Shown piece by piece: positions 3,633 to 18,530 of a stretch of DNA of 22,469 nucleotides. Both the position numbers and the translations under genes were made by a program. Source of the DNA: a virus. Every line of letters begins with the position of its first letter. The stretch's first letter is position 1. Under the pieces are notes generated by a model. The model saw only the letters and a program-made list of their open reading frames with translations. It did no database searches and was not told the origin of the DNA. Where the stretch lies: IMG/VR virus record IMGVR_UViG_3300034374_005695, positions 1 through 22,469 of that record; one strand, written 5' to 3'.

Positions 3633-5021
3633 ATGAAAACATTTCGCAACTTTTTAGATGAAGCAAGAAGAAATCCTATTTCAAAGAAAACAGGAAAAGA
3701 ATTAAATCCCAAAATTCCTCTTTATGACAAATTGGAACCATTAGCCAATGATAGTGATGTTTATATTACATATGTTGCTGATGTAGGTTCAATGAGTAAA
3801 AGTGCAGAAGGTTATAAGATTGGAATAAATCCAAATTCAGAATATAATACACCAAATGGTATTTATTCATATCCTCTGAAAGAAATCTGGAAGAAACACA
3901 AAAATCCTGTTGATAAAACTTTGGATGTTCCATTTGCTGGTGAACAACCATTTGTTTATATTTTCAAACCAAAAGCTACAGACAAGATTGTTGATCTGAA
4001 AAAATACAGTTCTGCTAGTTATGATAAAGATTATGATAAACTTGCCAAAATGATTATCAATTTTTTCATGAAGAAGAATAAGATGAATCAATGGTTCAGT
4101 TGGGAAGTGGCGAAAGCAACTCTAGAAGCAGCAACACAGAATTCTAAGAATAGATCCATTGGTGGTCAATTTTGGAACATGACAAGATATACATTTTTTA
4201 TAATGACAGGCCAAATTAGCACAAGATTGATGAAAGAATATGAAGAAGAAGTTCAAGAAGCAATGCTTGATCCTAAGAAACGTGCTAATTTTTCAGACAA
4301 AAAAATTAGAATTGAAGTGTATGAAAACATCAGGAGAGGTTCACCAACAAATCTTTGGAATAAAATTTTTAGGGATCTGGGGTATCATGGTATTGCTGAT
4401 AAAAACGATGCAGGAATCATACATCGTTCAGAACCAACACAAGCAGTATTCTTCAATGCATCATTCATCAAGGTGATTGATGGTGGATATAATAAAAATT
4501 ATAAAATAACAAAATTTGGTTCAGATAAATTTCCATCCGAATATTCTTTAACAAGTAATAGTAAAGAAGTCATGGAAATCATGTCAAACTATCTTGGAGT
4601 TCATGGTTCCTATGGAATGAAGTCTGTTATATTAGCAAATATGTTGAAAAATGTGGCTGATCGGTGTTTAATCAAAGAAAATACAATATATCTAAAAAAT
4701 ACCAAAGAACTAGATATGATGACAGATCCTAATTATCAGGATTATCATTCAGAAACACCTGTTAAATCAAAAATACATTTTTATACAACAGATGGTAATC
4801 GAAAGATGCTGGAAATAAATCAGAAAGGTGGAATTGTTTATGTGCCTGATGGTTGGAAACTTGATAATGATTCAAAAGATTATGTATTCACATATCAGGA
4901 TCTTAGTGGCGCAGCATTCTTAATGAAATTCAAAGATAGATTTTTGATGAGGCTAGTTCCAACCAAGGAACATGTAATTAGCTTCAAGGGACTCTTTGAT
5001 GACATAGATGATCTTGATTAG
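3633..5021 (+). CDS. Possible capsid-packaged protein with ADP-ribosyltransferase-like region
   Basis: 462 residues from ATG 3633; a longer frame starting at 3555 would overlap the previous gene. The start (MKTFRNFLDEA) closely resembles the capsid-targeting start of T4 internal proteins and Alt (MKTYQEFIAEA), which are packed in the head and injected. Residues 43-82 (DVYITYVADVG ... NTPNGIYSYPL) and 249-280 (LGYHGIADKNDAGIIHRSEP, then TQAVFF) recall the ADP-ribosyltransferase-like fold, in which 'GYDGI' and a late E/Q-x-E or 'QAVVF' strand are typical. The C-terminal 180 residues match nothing I know. The packaging signal is a reasonable inference; the enzyme call is tentative. It could also be an ordinary virion protein. 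Confidence 0.5.
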   Translation: MKTFRNFLDEARRNPISKKTGKELNPKIPLYDKLEPLANDSDVYITYVADVGSMSKSAEGYKIGINPNSEYNTPNGIYSYPLKEIWKKHKNPVDKTLDVPFAGEQPFVYIFKPKATDKIVDLKKYSSASYDKDYDKLAKMIINFFMKKNKMNQWFSWEVAKATLEAATQNSKNRSIGGQFWNMTRYTFFIMTGQISTRLMKEYEEEVQEAMLDPKKRANFSDKKIRIEVYENIRRGSPTNLWNKIFRDLGYHGIADKNDAGIIHRSEPTQAVFFNASFIKVIDGGYNKNYKITKFGSDKFPSEYSLTSNSKEVMEIMSNYLGVHGSYGMKSVILANMLKNVADRCLIKENTIYLKNTKELDMMTDPNYQDYHSETPVKSKIHFYTTDGNRKMLEINQKGGIVYVPDGWKLDNDSKDYVFTYQDLSGAAFLMKFKDRFLMRLVPTKEHVISFKGLFDDIDDLD

Positions 5022-5030
5022 AAATTTTAC

Positions 5031-5059
5031 TTGACATTTTGATTCAGAATTAGTATAAT
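5031..5059 (+). promoter_or_regulatory. Sigma70-type promoter for primase operon
   Basis: TTGACA at 5031-5036, 17-base spacer, TATAAT at 5054-5059: full consensus at both boxes. Transcription should start near 5066, followed by GGAG at 5076-5079 and the primase ATG at 5088. It separates the late-type genes upstream from the replication genes downstream. Confidence 0.85.
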
Positions 5060-6183: not shown

Positions 6184-6915
6184 ATGTTTTATGTTTATTT
6201 ACATGTTAATCCAGAAACAGGAATTCCTTTTTATGTAGGAAAGGGAAAAAATAGGAGAGCATATGATGTTAATGGCAGAAGTCAACATCATAAAACATAT
6301 TTTAATAATTTATTAAAAAAATATTCCCTTGACGAAATTGTTAAAATTGTATATTATACAGAAAATGAATTTGATGCCTTTCATAAAGAAATTGATTTAA
6401 TTGAACAATATGGAAGAAAATCAAATCAGACAGGTTCATTATTAAATTTGGCTGTAGGAGGTCTTGGCGGTGATACAGGAGTTAGTGAACGATGGAAAAA
6501 AGAAAGAATTGGAGAAGGAAATCCTAATTATGGCAAAACAAGAACAATAGAACAAATTGAAAATATAAAAAAAGGAATACAAAGATTTTATGATTCTAAA
6601 GAAGGAAAAGAATGTAAACAGATATTATCTGAAAAAATGAAAACAAGACAAGAATCAAAAGGAATAGTAAAAGATTCAATTTGGTGGAATGATGGTGTTA
6701 AAAATAAAAGGTCAAAAGAATCACCTGGAATTGAATGGGTTAAAGGTAGACTACCTTTTCAAAAAAGCACTAAAAATAATTGTTTCATTCACAACAATCC
6801 AAAATCTATATCTTTAGAAATAGATGGTGTAATATATGAATCAAAAACAGACGCCATGAGAAAATTGAATCTTTCAAAATGGAAATTAAACAAATTATTA
6901 AAGGAAAGTAAATGA
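6184..6915 (+). CDS. GIY-YIG homing endonuclease, free-standing
   Basis: 243 residues. The N-terminal catalytic domain has the GIY-YIG signature as Y3-V-Y plus F19-Y-V-G-K-G, followed by a conserved R/Y region and E-x-x-x-I-x-x-Y at about 65-75. The middle has a NUMOD3-like DNA-binding repeat (NPNYGKTRTIEQIENIKKGI). A 'WWNDGVKNKR ... WVKGRL' block is typical of phage homing enzymes. The last 35 residues look like an IENR1/NUMOD helix-turn-helix (SKTDAMRKLNLSKWKLNKLL). Such genes spread by cutting alleles that lack them. It has its own late promoter, and its last codons overlap the reductase start (ATGA), so it now controls that start. Its base composition is even more AT-rich than its neighbours, as expected of a mobile gene. 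Confidence 0.9.
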   Translation: MFYVYLHVNPETGIPFYVGKGKNRRAYDVNGRSQHHKTYFNNLLKKYSLDEIVKIVYYTENEFDAFHKEIDLIEQYGRKSNQTGSLLNLAVGGLGGDTGVSERWKKERIGEGNPNYGKTRTIEQIENIKKGIQRFYDSKEGKECKQILSEKMKTRQESKGIVKDSIWWNDGVKNKRSKESPGIEWVKGRLPFQKSTKNNCFIHNNPKSISLEIDGVIYESKTDAMRKLNLSKWKLNKLLKESK

Positions 6916-10030: not shown

Positions 10031-10277
10031 AGACATCGAGTCTCGGAGTATGGGTGCAGGTGGAGAAGACTTGATCATGTCAAGATCTGCCAGAGAGAAA
10101 TTTAGTTATTCGGTTGAATGCAAGAATGTAGAGAAGTTGAACGTCTGGGATGCATATGATCAAGCAAAAGTCAACTCGAAAGATTATGAACCCATCGTGG
10201 TTATGAAGAAAAACGGGAAGAAGCCACTAGTGGTGATTGATGCTGAATATTTTGTAAAGCTACATAAAAAAACTTGA
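9942..10277 (+). CDS. PD-(D/E)XK nuclease-like protein (resolvase type)
   Basis: 111 residues from ATG 9942; an in-frame GTG at 9930 gives three more. The N-terminus is basic (KGRRLQQWMRDIL). 'SRSMGAGGEDLIMSRSAREKF' followed by 'SVECKN' gives the catalytic set D43 and E59-x-K61 of the PD-(D/E)XK fold. Related phage proteins are annotated as Holliday-junction-resolvase-like. A role in resolving DNA branches during replication or packaging would suit the neighbours. Its first third overlaps the small gene before it in a different frame. Confidence 0.75.
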   Translation: MKTQSAKAKGRRLQQWMRDILIEDLDIHPEDIESRSMGAGGEDLIMSRSAREKFSYSVECKNVEKLNVWDAYDQAKVNSKDYEPIVVMKKNGKKPLVVIDAEYFVKLHKKT

Positions 10278-10301
10278 CAACTTAAATTTATGAGGTATAA
10301 T
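10274..10301 (+). promoter_or_regulatory. Sigma70-type promoter ahead of bS21 operon
   Basis: TTGACA at 10274-10279, 16-base spacer, TATAAT at 10296-10301. It begins inside the stop region of the nuclease gene. The expected RNA start (about 10308) leaves only 6-7 bases before ATG 10314, so most of the AAAGGA element (10302-10307) would not be in the message made here. Confidence 0.75.
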
Positions 10302-15803: not shown

Positions 15804-15832
15804 TTGACATTTTTATTAGCATTTAGTATAAT
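15804..15832 (+). promoter_or_regulatory. Sigma70-type promoter touching the next start codon
   Basis: TTGACA at 15804-15809, 17-base spacer, TATAAT at 15827-15832, full consensus. The next ATG (15833) directly abuts the -10 box; the expected RNA start is near 15839. A message from here would begin inside that gene, before an internal ATG at 15845. Confidence 0.82.
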
Positions 15833-16701: not shown

Positions 16702-17062
16702 TGGGATATTTGCAACCAGTACACTTTATGCTCAACAAATGGCAAACAAGCCGATCTTTTGTGCGCCATTACAGAATGTTGTAGCAATTGCGGAGCAAAG
16801 AGGTGATTATCCTGTAATGTATGGTGACACTACTTTGCAAGCACAACAAGGAACAATGTCTGCAAAGGTTATCATTGCTCACAATTTCCAAACAAAAACA
16901 TATTCAATCATCGAAGTATATAACACAAACTGGGCATGTGTTTTAGCAATAGGAACTAAATTAACAATTATGCCTCCTGATGGTGGTATGGTGCCGAATG
17001 ATAATTCGACAGATCCGTTTAAAGGTATTCCGATTGATCCAGATAACAGTATGGCATTATGA
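16676..17062 (+). CDS. Exported protein with signal peptide, unknown function
   Basis: 128 residues from ATG 16676, with GGGAG at 16664-16668; an in-frame start at 16643 would bury the signal. The N-terminus MKKFLLLLSGIFATSTLYAQ is a clear Sec signal peptide, probably cut after ...LYA. The mature part has two Cys (CAPLQ, WACVL) and beta-rich sequence (KVIIAHNFQTKTYSIIEVYN), ending in a Pro/Asp tail. It would act in the periplasm; envelope or superinfection roles are possible but not shown. It overlaps the exonuclease gene by 26 bases. Confidence 0.7.
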   Translation: MKKFLLLLSGIFATSTLYAQQMANKPIFCAPLQNVVAIAEQRGDYPVMYGDTTLQAQQGTMSAKVIIAHNFQTKTYSIIEVYNTNWACVLAIGTKLTIMPPDGGMVPNDNSTDPFKGIPIDPDNSMAL

Positions 17063-17217
17063 AAAAAAGAAAAGGCAGAAAAGCATCAAAAAGGACAGTA
17101 CGCTGCACCATTTGCACCACACATCGATGGCTGGGTAATAATGAAGGTCGATGGAACATCAATACTCAGAAACGAGAACAATCTGCAAAGGAACAGCTAA
17201 AAGAATTTGCTTGTTGA
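17059..17217 (+). CDS. Small basic conserved phage protein
   Basis: 52 residues with an ATGA overlap to the secreted-protein gene. 'KASKRTVRCTICTTHRWLGNNEGRW' has a CxxC pair and a conserved 'C-T-x-C-T-x-H-R-W-L-G-N' block that I recall from small proteins of T4-like phages. With only two Cys plus His, it might bind zinc. The stop lies directly before the tmRNA region. Function unknown. Confidence 0.62.
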   Translation: MKKRKGRKASKRTVRCTICTTHRWLGNNEGRWNINTQKREQSAKEQLKEFAC

Positions 17218-17229
17218 CATGTGAAGATA

Positions 17230-17268
17230 TTTTTTAGCACGCAGGTTCGATTCCTGCCACCTCCACCA
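17230..17268 (+). other. tmRNA acceptor piece (3' half of tRNA-like domain)
   Basis: It contains the P2 3' strand, a canonical 5-bp T-stem with 7-base loop, the 7-base acceptor strand and an encoded CCA. In an unpermuted gene this would be at the 3' end; here it precedes the coding piece. The mature 5' end is unknown and may lie a little upstream. Confidence 0.85.
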
Positions 17269-17366
17269 TATTCTTTTCAACACATGGGGGTGTAAAGGCA
17301 TTCGACTAGAAAAGAAAATAGCAAAGAGAGCAAATAGGGTAGTGACCAACACTAATTCAATTAGAG

Positions 17367-17414
17367 GCAAACAACTCTGATTATTCTTCTGCGCAAGTAG
17401 CTTTGGCTGCTTGA
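17367..17414 (+). other. tmRNA proteolysis-tag reading frame
   Basis: GCA resume codon, then codons for ANNSDYSSAQVALAA and TGA. The N-terminal 'AN' and the terminal 'ALAA' are standard tmRNA tag features; ALAA directs the tagged product to ClpXP-type proteases. The middle (SDYSSAQV) differs from tags I can recall. A 4-bp hairpin AGAG/CTCT can form around the resume codon. Confidence 0.88.
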
Positions 17415-17421
17415 TGCAGGT

Positions 17422-17454
17422 GGGTTTGTGGCAAACCTAGAAACAGAATTGCCA
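17422..17454 (+). other. tmRNA pseudoknot downstream of the tag
   Basis: H-type pseudoknot: stem 1 GGGTTT (17422-17427) with AAACCT (17433-17438), and stem 2 TGGC (17429-17432) with GCCA (17451-17454), with a 12-base A-rich loop between. This is the position of PK2 in tmRNAs. Confidence 0.75.
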
Positions 17455-17485
17455 CATTCACATCACACACATAAGGAAAAGTAAC

Positions 17486-17662
17486 ATGGATCTTTCATGC
17501 TTACATCATGACAATTCTGAATTAAAATCATATTTTAAGGCAGAATACAAAAATGATTGGGAATATGCATATGCTGATTTTCTGGAAGAGAAAAGAAGCA
17601 AAAGAAAAAACATTTTCAAAACAATTATGGCAACACTTTTTCACACACACAAAGGAGAATAA
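17486..17662 (+). CDS. Small hydrophilic protein, unknown function
   Basis: 58 residues (MDLSCLHHDNSELKSYFKAE), preceded by AAGGAAAAG. Aromatic and charged residues dominate (NDWEYAYADFLEEKRSKRKN); no membrane segment. Its leader (CACACACATAAGGA) is nearly repeated before the next gene, 3 bases after its stop. No family recognised. It is the first gene after the tmRNA and may share its transcript. Confidence 0.55.
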   Translation: MDLSCLHHDNSELKSYFKAEYKNDWEYAYADFLEEKRSKRKNIFKTIMATLFHTHKGE

Positions 17663-18261: not shown

Positions 18262-18495
18262 ATGATGTTTGAAGAATTAAAAATTATGAGTGCGAAAAAA
18301 TTTTCATATGAGATTGAAGAATTTGTAAATCGAACTGGTATCTCATATCTTGATGCAGTTCTGGAATATTGTTCTGAAAACAAAATAGAACCAGAAACTG
18401 TGGCATCACTTATTACCAAACCTCTTAAAGAAAAGATTGAAGTGGACGCTATGAAACTCAATCTTATCCCCAAAGTTTCTCAGTTACCTGTATAA
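18262..18495 (+). CDS. 33: Late-transcription co-activator, T4 gp33-like
   Basis: 77 residues (start 18262 or 18265), preceded by AAAGGAAAA. 'TGISYLDAVLEYCSENKIEP' followed by 'ETVASLITKPLKEKIEVDAM' aligns with T4 gp33 (GMSYLEATTAFLEENSIPET ... IIEKIQSEAI). gp33 binds RNA polymerase and links it to the gp45 clamp for late transcription. T4 gp33 is 112 residues; here the N-terminal part and C-terminal tail are shorter. It should work with the TATAAATA promoters in this window. Confidence 0.8.
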   Translation: MMFEELKIMSAKKFSYEIEEFVNRTGISYLDAVLEYCSENKIEPETVASLITKPLKEKIEVDAMKLNLIPKVSQLPV

Positions 18496-18501
18496 AAATA
18501 C

Positions 18502-18530
18502 TTGACATTTTTCCTGAGAAGGAGTATAAT
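18502..18530 (+). promoter_or_regulatory. Sigma70-type promoter overlapping the gp59 start
   Basis: TTGACA at 18502-18507, 17-base spacer, TATAAT at 18525-18530, full consensus. The last two bases of the -10 box are the first two of ATG 18529. The expected RNA start (about 18537) coincides with a second ATG at 18538. AAGGAG lies in the spacer at 18519-18524. Confidence 0.82.

Follow-up and report, generated by a model that had tools for sequence, protein, structure and literature searches.

Judged by its sequence, the segment at positions 17203-17460 of the window (the whole 22,469-nucleotide stretch of IMG/VR record IMGVR_UViG_3300034374_005695 analysed here) is a circularly permuted two-piece tmRNA gene of a marine T4-like phage. 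Because its helices stay paired through two-sided changes and its tag peptide is kept through mostly silent changes, we regard it as a maintained gene under selection. The same gene in the same slot has already been described in print for Melnitz and Mosig, two other phages, and the kind itself is not new.

Searching the window against all Rfam families, we found a match to the complete permuted tmRNA model RF04321 (tmRNA_permuted, model positions 1-213) at 17206-17414, with 86.4 bits compared to a cut-off of 47 (E 1.2e-15). ARAGORN also called a permuted tmRNA at 17176-17505, with the tag ANNSDYSSAQVALAA. Both results bear out the initial annotation, which had read a permuted two-piece tmRNA here and had suggested scoring it with the alpha, beta and cyano covariance models. 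Compared with the bacterial permuted tmRNAs, the window passes the merged model but no subtype cut-off, since beta_tmRNA (RF01850, 55.7 bits, cut-off 84), cyano_tmRNA (RF01851, 43.8 bits, cut-off 70) and alpha_tmRNA (RF01849, 28.1 bits, cut-off 50) all matched below threshold. According to the available text of PMC11915505, the merged model finds every permuted sequence of its database, and no older subtype model does. In a control with 14 named genomes, RF04321 gave weak matches in five and exceeded its cut-off in one only, so records were counted by the cut-off. The linear RNA had a folding z-score of -3.73, and none of 200 shuffles was equally stable. In its minimum-energy fold, the linear precursor formed the acceptor stem and lacked the T-arm and P2.

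All parts of the gene lie on the plus strand, and the acceptor piece with its encoded CCA precedes the coding piece, as had been annotated. The acceptor piece spans 17203-17268, and its 5' end is approximate (the block conserved in six aligned sequences begins at about 17203, the RF04321 match at 17206 and the ARAGORN call at 17176). The 5' limit of 17218 given initially is too short: the stretch 17205-17215 pairs with 17320-17335 and is invariant in the six sequences. These far P2 strands (17205-17211 with 17329-17335, 17212-17215 with 17320-17323) were paired in 6/6 sequences. A 52-amino-acid frame at 17059-17217, for which no Pfam match was found, extends into the beginning of the acceptor piece, so that the conserved tmRNA block includes its final codons.

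The other elements named initially are all present. The 8-bp P2 helix across the pieces joins 17230-17237 to 17306-17313, and the T-arm (17241-17257) has a 5-bp stem, kept with a double change in L160, and a canonical TTCGATT loop. The 3' strand of the acceptor stem (17258-17264) pairs over 7 bp with the sequence GGGGGUG at 17286-17292, where the sequence, RF04321 and the alignment place the start of the coding piece. Its single G-U is pair 3, the position at which tmRNA and tRNA-Ala carry G3-U70, their alanine identity pair. The discriminator A (17265) and the CCA (17266-17268) are invariant in the six aligned sequences. Between the pieces lies an intervening segment of 17 nt (17269-17285), positioned by homology to permuted tmRNA and expected to be removed. 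In the pairing scan described below, this segment measured 16-17 nt in close relatives, 27 nt in L160 and up to 186 nt elsewhere; across these phages (L106, L061, L099 and others) it thus ranges from 16 to 186 nt. The coding piece continues with the D-loop region (17293-17305, from the RF04321 alignment), the 5' strands of P2 within 17306-17335 (17306-17313, 17320-17323 and 17329-17335, from aligned pairing), a pre-tag hairpin of four counted pairs (17341-17353), and the tag frame (17367-17411) with its stop codon (17412-17414). A pseudoknot follows at 17421-17455, formed by 17421-17425 with 17435-17439 and 17428-17432 with 17451-17455, and its ten pairs were kept in 6/6 sequences. The gene is as compact as first described, with under 175 bases from the start of the coding piece to the end of the pseudoknot.

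The pairing was evaluated in an alignment of six distinct clade sequences (the window, L151, L155, L157, L158 and L160). With the corrected structure, 45 pairs in 8 helices were paired in every sequence (270/270 cells). This figure follows two corrections: the helix strand 17212-17215, of which 40% of cells had been paired, was moved by one base, and an eleventh pseudoknot pair, failing in three of the six sequences, was dropped. The first structure was 92.6% paired and held the same 6 double changes. These 6 two-sided changes compare with a mean of 1.7 in shuffled alignments; 0/500 shuffles were as high, and slid controls gave 0 or 1. The 11 further pair types found in the six sequences showed no excess over shuffles (268/500 reached 11). 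Within the 8-bp P2 helix, two pairs changed on both sides, two on one side, and none was broken. Relative to the window, a P2 G-C pair is replaced by A-U in L155, L157 and L158, an acceptor-stem C-G pair by U-A in L151, and a T-stem A-U pair by C-G in L160, which also carries two double changes in the pre-tag hairpin. The far P2 strand 17205-17211 is invariant in the six sequences and hence has no covariation support. The first pseudoknot stem is likewise invariant and without covariation; one pseudoknot pair alone varies, on one side, and the support for this element comes from conservation. The initial annotation had named loss of pairing in close relatives as evidence against a tmRNA; we found pairing kept there, by compensatory changes.

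A wider pairing scan, in which at least 6/7 acceptor, 4/5 T-stem and 5/8 P2 pairs and 17/20 overall were required, gave loci in 95 of 220 sequences, a count that contains near-copies and duplicate loci. Two earlier, stricter scans had given 11 loci each. Among 27 distinct haplotypes, 189/189 acceptor, 135/135 T-stem and 168/216 P2 cells were paired, percentages that are biased upward since the scan chose its loci by pairing. Each of the three values exceeded all 2000 strand shuffles. The unpaired P2 cells (48/216) were concentrated at positions 4 to 6, which held 44 of them, and acceptor pair 3 was G-U in 27/27 haplotypes.

The tag frame also bears marks of selection. The peptide ANNSDYSSAQVALAA, as given by ARAGORN, has a resume Ala codon, a hydrophobic end with Ala-Ala and a stop. 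Comparing the window with L160, we found 14 base differences in the tag, which amount to 9 silent and 2 conservative codon changes; among 20000 random draws, none reached so low a number of amino-acid changes. In L157 a single Ser is replaced by Pro. Within the limits of sequence evidence, the tag is translated and selected. All 95 scan loci have tags ending in LAA or IAA, a count to be read with the preference of the tag picker for ANDN-like starts and LAA-like ends.

The surrounding genes, assigned with PHROGs, agree with the T4-like replication setting that had been proposed, with relatives of gp33, gp59, ThyX, gp32, PhoH and primase. On the upstream side, a PhoH-like gene, an exonuclease and small genes without a match precede the tmRNA on the same strand; downstream, also on the same strand, are small genes, gp33, the gp59 helicase loader, ThyX and gp32. 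The late-promoter coactivator gp33 (18262-18495, plus strand; PHROG 254, E 4.6e-24) serves as the syntenic marker. Primase and ribonucleotide reductase lie farther upstream, and a homing-endonuclease-like gene was observed between them at 6184-6915.

We also found a perfect sigma-70 consensus promoter (15804-15832, plus strand; 12/12 matches, 17-nt spacer) about 1.4 kb upstream of the tmRNA, and we infer that the two are linked. The plus strand of the window holds four perfect TTGACA-16/17-TATAAT sequences (5031-5059, 10274-10301, 15804-15832 and 18502-18530) compared with 0.01 expected, and these are probably early promoters. SmpB was found in 0/13 phage records (Melnitz and Mosig complete, the others fragments), and the same search found it in 10/14 control genomes. 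Given its absence from the phage records searched, the tmRNA most likely works with host SmpB.

The gene recurs in related phages. Among 50 IMG/VR records that encode a gp33 relative, 42 matched RF04321 and 39 passed its cut-off; these 50 are among 80 loci retained from 152 encoding a gp33 relative, are mostly those nearest to the window's gp33, and include near-copies. Two of the unmatched records (L195 and L196) have room for a tmRNA upstream of gp33 and gave no RF04321 match, and the other six (L152, L153, L154, L156, L159 and L197) end 364-1092 bases upstream of gp33, where the room may or may not suffice. Of ten loci found through gp59, five have a permuted tmRNA by ARAGORN and a further three, missed by ARAGORN, by Rfam; of the remaining two, L055 starts 905 bases before gp33 and L056 inside gp33. 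A gp33 relative follows the tmRNA at a distance of 336 to 1875 bases in all 95 loci of the pairing scan, most of which had been collected through similarity to gp33 or gp59. The initial view that a permuted tmRNA in such a region is a rarity was thus overstated, both by the 39/50 gp33-bearing viral records above the cut-off and by the published slot in Melnitz and Mosig.

Within the phage collection, Melnitz comes closest, with 64.6% identity in gp32 and 49.0% in gp59; a DNA search of that collection gave no match. The ssrA gene of Melnitz EXVC044M (MZ577097.1, gene 86) resembles that of the window: it is permuted, lies on the same strand and sits between a nuclease gene upstream and gp33 downstream. 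Unlike the window, it is alpha-type (106.7 bits in Rfam), and it encodes the tag ANDNYVPVDYALAA instead of ANNSDYSSAQVALAA. Its T-loop is GGCAGTA and its intervening segment 142 nt, whereas the window has TTCGATT and 17 nt. Melnitz further has a glutamine riboswitch aptamer at the 3' end of the tmRNA, for which the window gave no Rfam match at E up to 1. This aptamer (4440-4488 of the Melnitz locus L061, 52.8 bits) begins after the alpha_tmRNA match, which ends at 4432, and it overlaps the annotated tmRNA 3' end (4478). Given this placement, the riboswitch may act on what follows, rather than controlling the tmRNA as the abstract of the Melnitz paper words it (PMC9004378). The ssrA gene of Pelagibacter phage Mosig EXVC030M (MT647606.1) is likewise permuted and in the same slot before gp33, but it passes the alpha model with 67.6 bits, and its tag is GEDNFALAA.

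The available text of PMC9004378 describes the two-piece tmRNA of Melnitz as preceding a transcription coactivator, and names Mosig as another example, which has a riboswitch. It counts tmRNA in 402 of 18,146 phage genomes and two-piece forms in 53 of 133 unique phage tmRNAs, 50 of the 53 being marine or aquatic. Permuted tmRNA is given there for 17/47 Melnitz-like contigs, a lower share than the 39/50 found here. Another count, in the accessible part of PMC11915505, is 79 unique phage tmRNA sequences, and earlier phage tmRNAs are listed in the part of PMC4131195 at hand. We found neither covariation nor tag selection in the accessible sections of the Melnitz paper (PMC9004378).

A second class of permuted tmRNA was found in 49 viral contigs (L002-L050), some of which have many tRNA genes. 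Like the window, 47/49 pass RF04321, but their T-arm register differs from that of the window; the search pattern that gave them was one base out of register with the window's T-arm. None of the 32 that entered the tmRNA tree fell inside the window clade; omitted from the tree were L004, L006, L018, L034, L035, L048 and L049 (7/49 contigs) and pieces that were identical or too short. In this tree of 86 rows, the window clade is held together (6 rows, support 100/99) on a long branch, and its deeper place is unsettled.

These phage genes are not cleanly separated by the subtype models: 11 of 14 representatives pass the alpha model (not the window, L151 or L157) and two (L182 and L124) pass the beta model. 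The particulars of the clade, as found in the window, are scores below all alpha, beta and cyano cut-offs, a tag of its own and the 17-nt intervening segment. Its member L160 reaches 56.9 bits with alpha_tmRNA (cut-off 50), and L157 has no alpha_tmRNA match. That L160 lies above the alpha cut-off while the window, L151 and L157 do not would fit divergence from the alpha-type gene of the relatives. Two scans of bacterial genome contigs for a host or donor lineage, with T-arm patterns in the register of the window, gave 0 matches and hence no bacterial source, which, with patterns this strict, is weak evidence of absence.

Taken together, this data makes it very probable that the gene is a working permuted tmRNA of a Melnitz-like T4-type marine phage, processed by the host, dependent on host SmpB and sustaining ribosome rescue. 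Sequence comparison shows the gene, the pairing and the selection acting on the tag; processing, charging, the use of SmpB and the benefit go beyond it. One precursor RNA would be transcribed, probably early. Host tRNA-processing enzymes would generate the 3' end of the acceptor piece at CCA and the 5' end of the coding piece at 17286, with loss of the 17-nt segment, and the acceptor and P2 helices would hold the two pieces together. Host alanyl-tRNA synthetase and host SmpB would then load the tmRNA onto stalled ribosomes, where the tag ANNSDYSSAQVALAA would mark the stalled product for host proteases. The likely benefit to the phage would be steady ribosome rescue during the dismantling of host RNA and DNA.

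A different use was suggested by the Melnitz authors as one possibility, namely that host proteins are tagged and destroyed to recycle amino acids, and in the available text the Melnitz tmRNA directly follows an early promoter (PMC9004378). In our case the perfect promoter lies 1.4 kb upstream, and the tag end is of the degradation type, both in keeping with the targeting of host proteins. However, we saw no feature of selectivity in the window sequence, and tmRNA acts wherever ribosomes stall and does not select particular proteins, which makes such targeting unlikely. Still less probable is that the RNA sequesters host SmpB or protease as a decoy. Such an effect is reported for the tag-less RNA of phage DS6A (available text of PMC11915505 and PMC4131195), but the tag frame of the window is intact, is under selection, and has its resume Ala codon and stop.

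The alpha, beta and cyano scores below cut-off and the long branch of the clade might also be expected of a captured host fragment in decay. We consider this very improbable, since the compensatory changes, the silent changes in the tag and the same slot kept in many phages speak for an intact gene. For a chance resemblance or an unrelated structured leader we found no supporting evidence at all, and the E value of 1.2e-15 and the annotated homologues in the same slot of Melnitz and Mosig leave this reading a negligible probability. The preferred reading thus remains that of a working tmRNA in ribosome rescue.

These observations suggest that in these phages the tmRNA regularly accompanies gp33 and is not there by accident, and the window clade, divergent and clearly under selection, enlarges the set of two-piece phage tmRNAs. 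A bolder view, which we hold tentatively and think rather doubtful, is that the tmRNA is a standing gene beside gp33 in this phage group, and that the window clade has diverged from the bacterial lineages to become a form specific to phages, with a tag of its own and adapted to their needs. If true, such a use could consist, for example, in outcompeting the host tmRNA or in steering tagged products to another protease. The clade offers intact material for testing why a lytic phage retains ribosome rescue.
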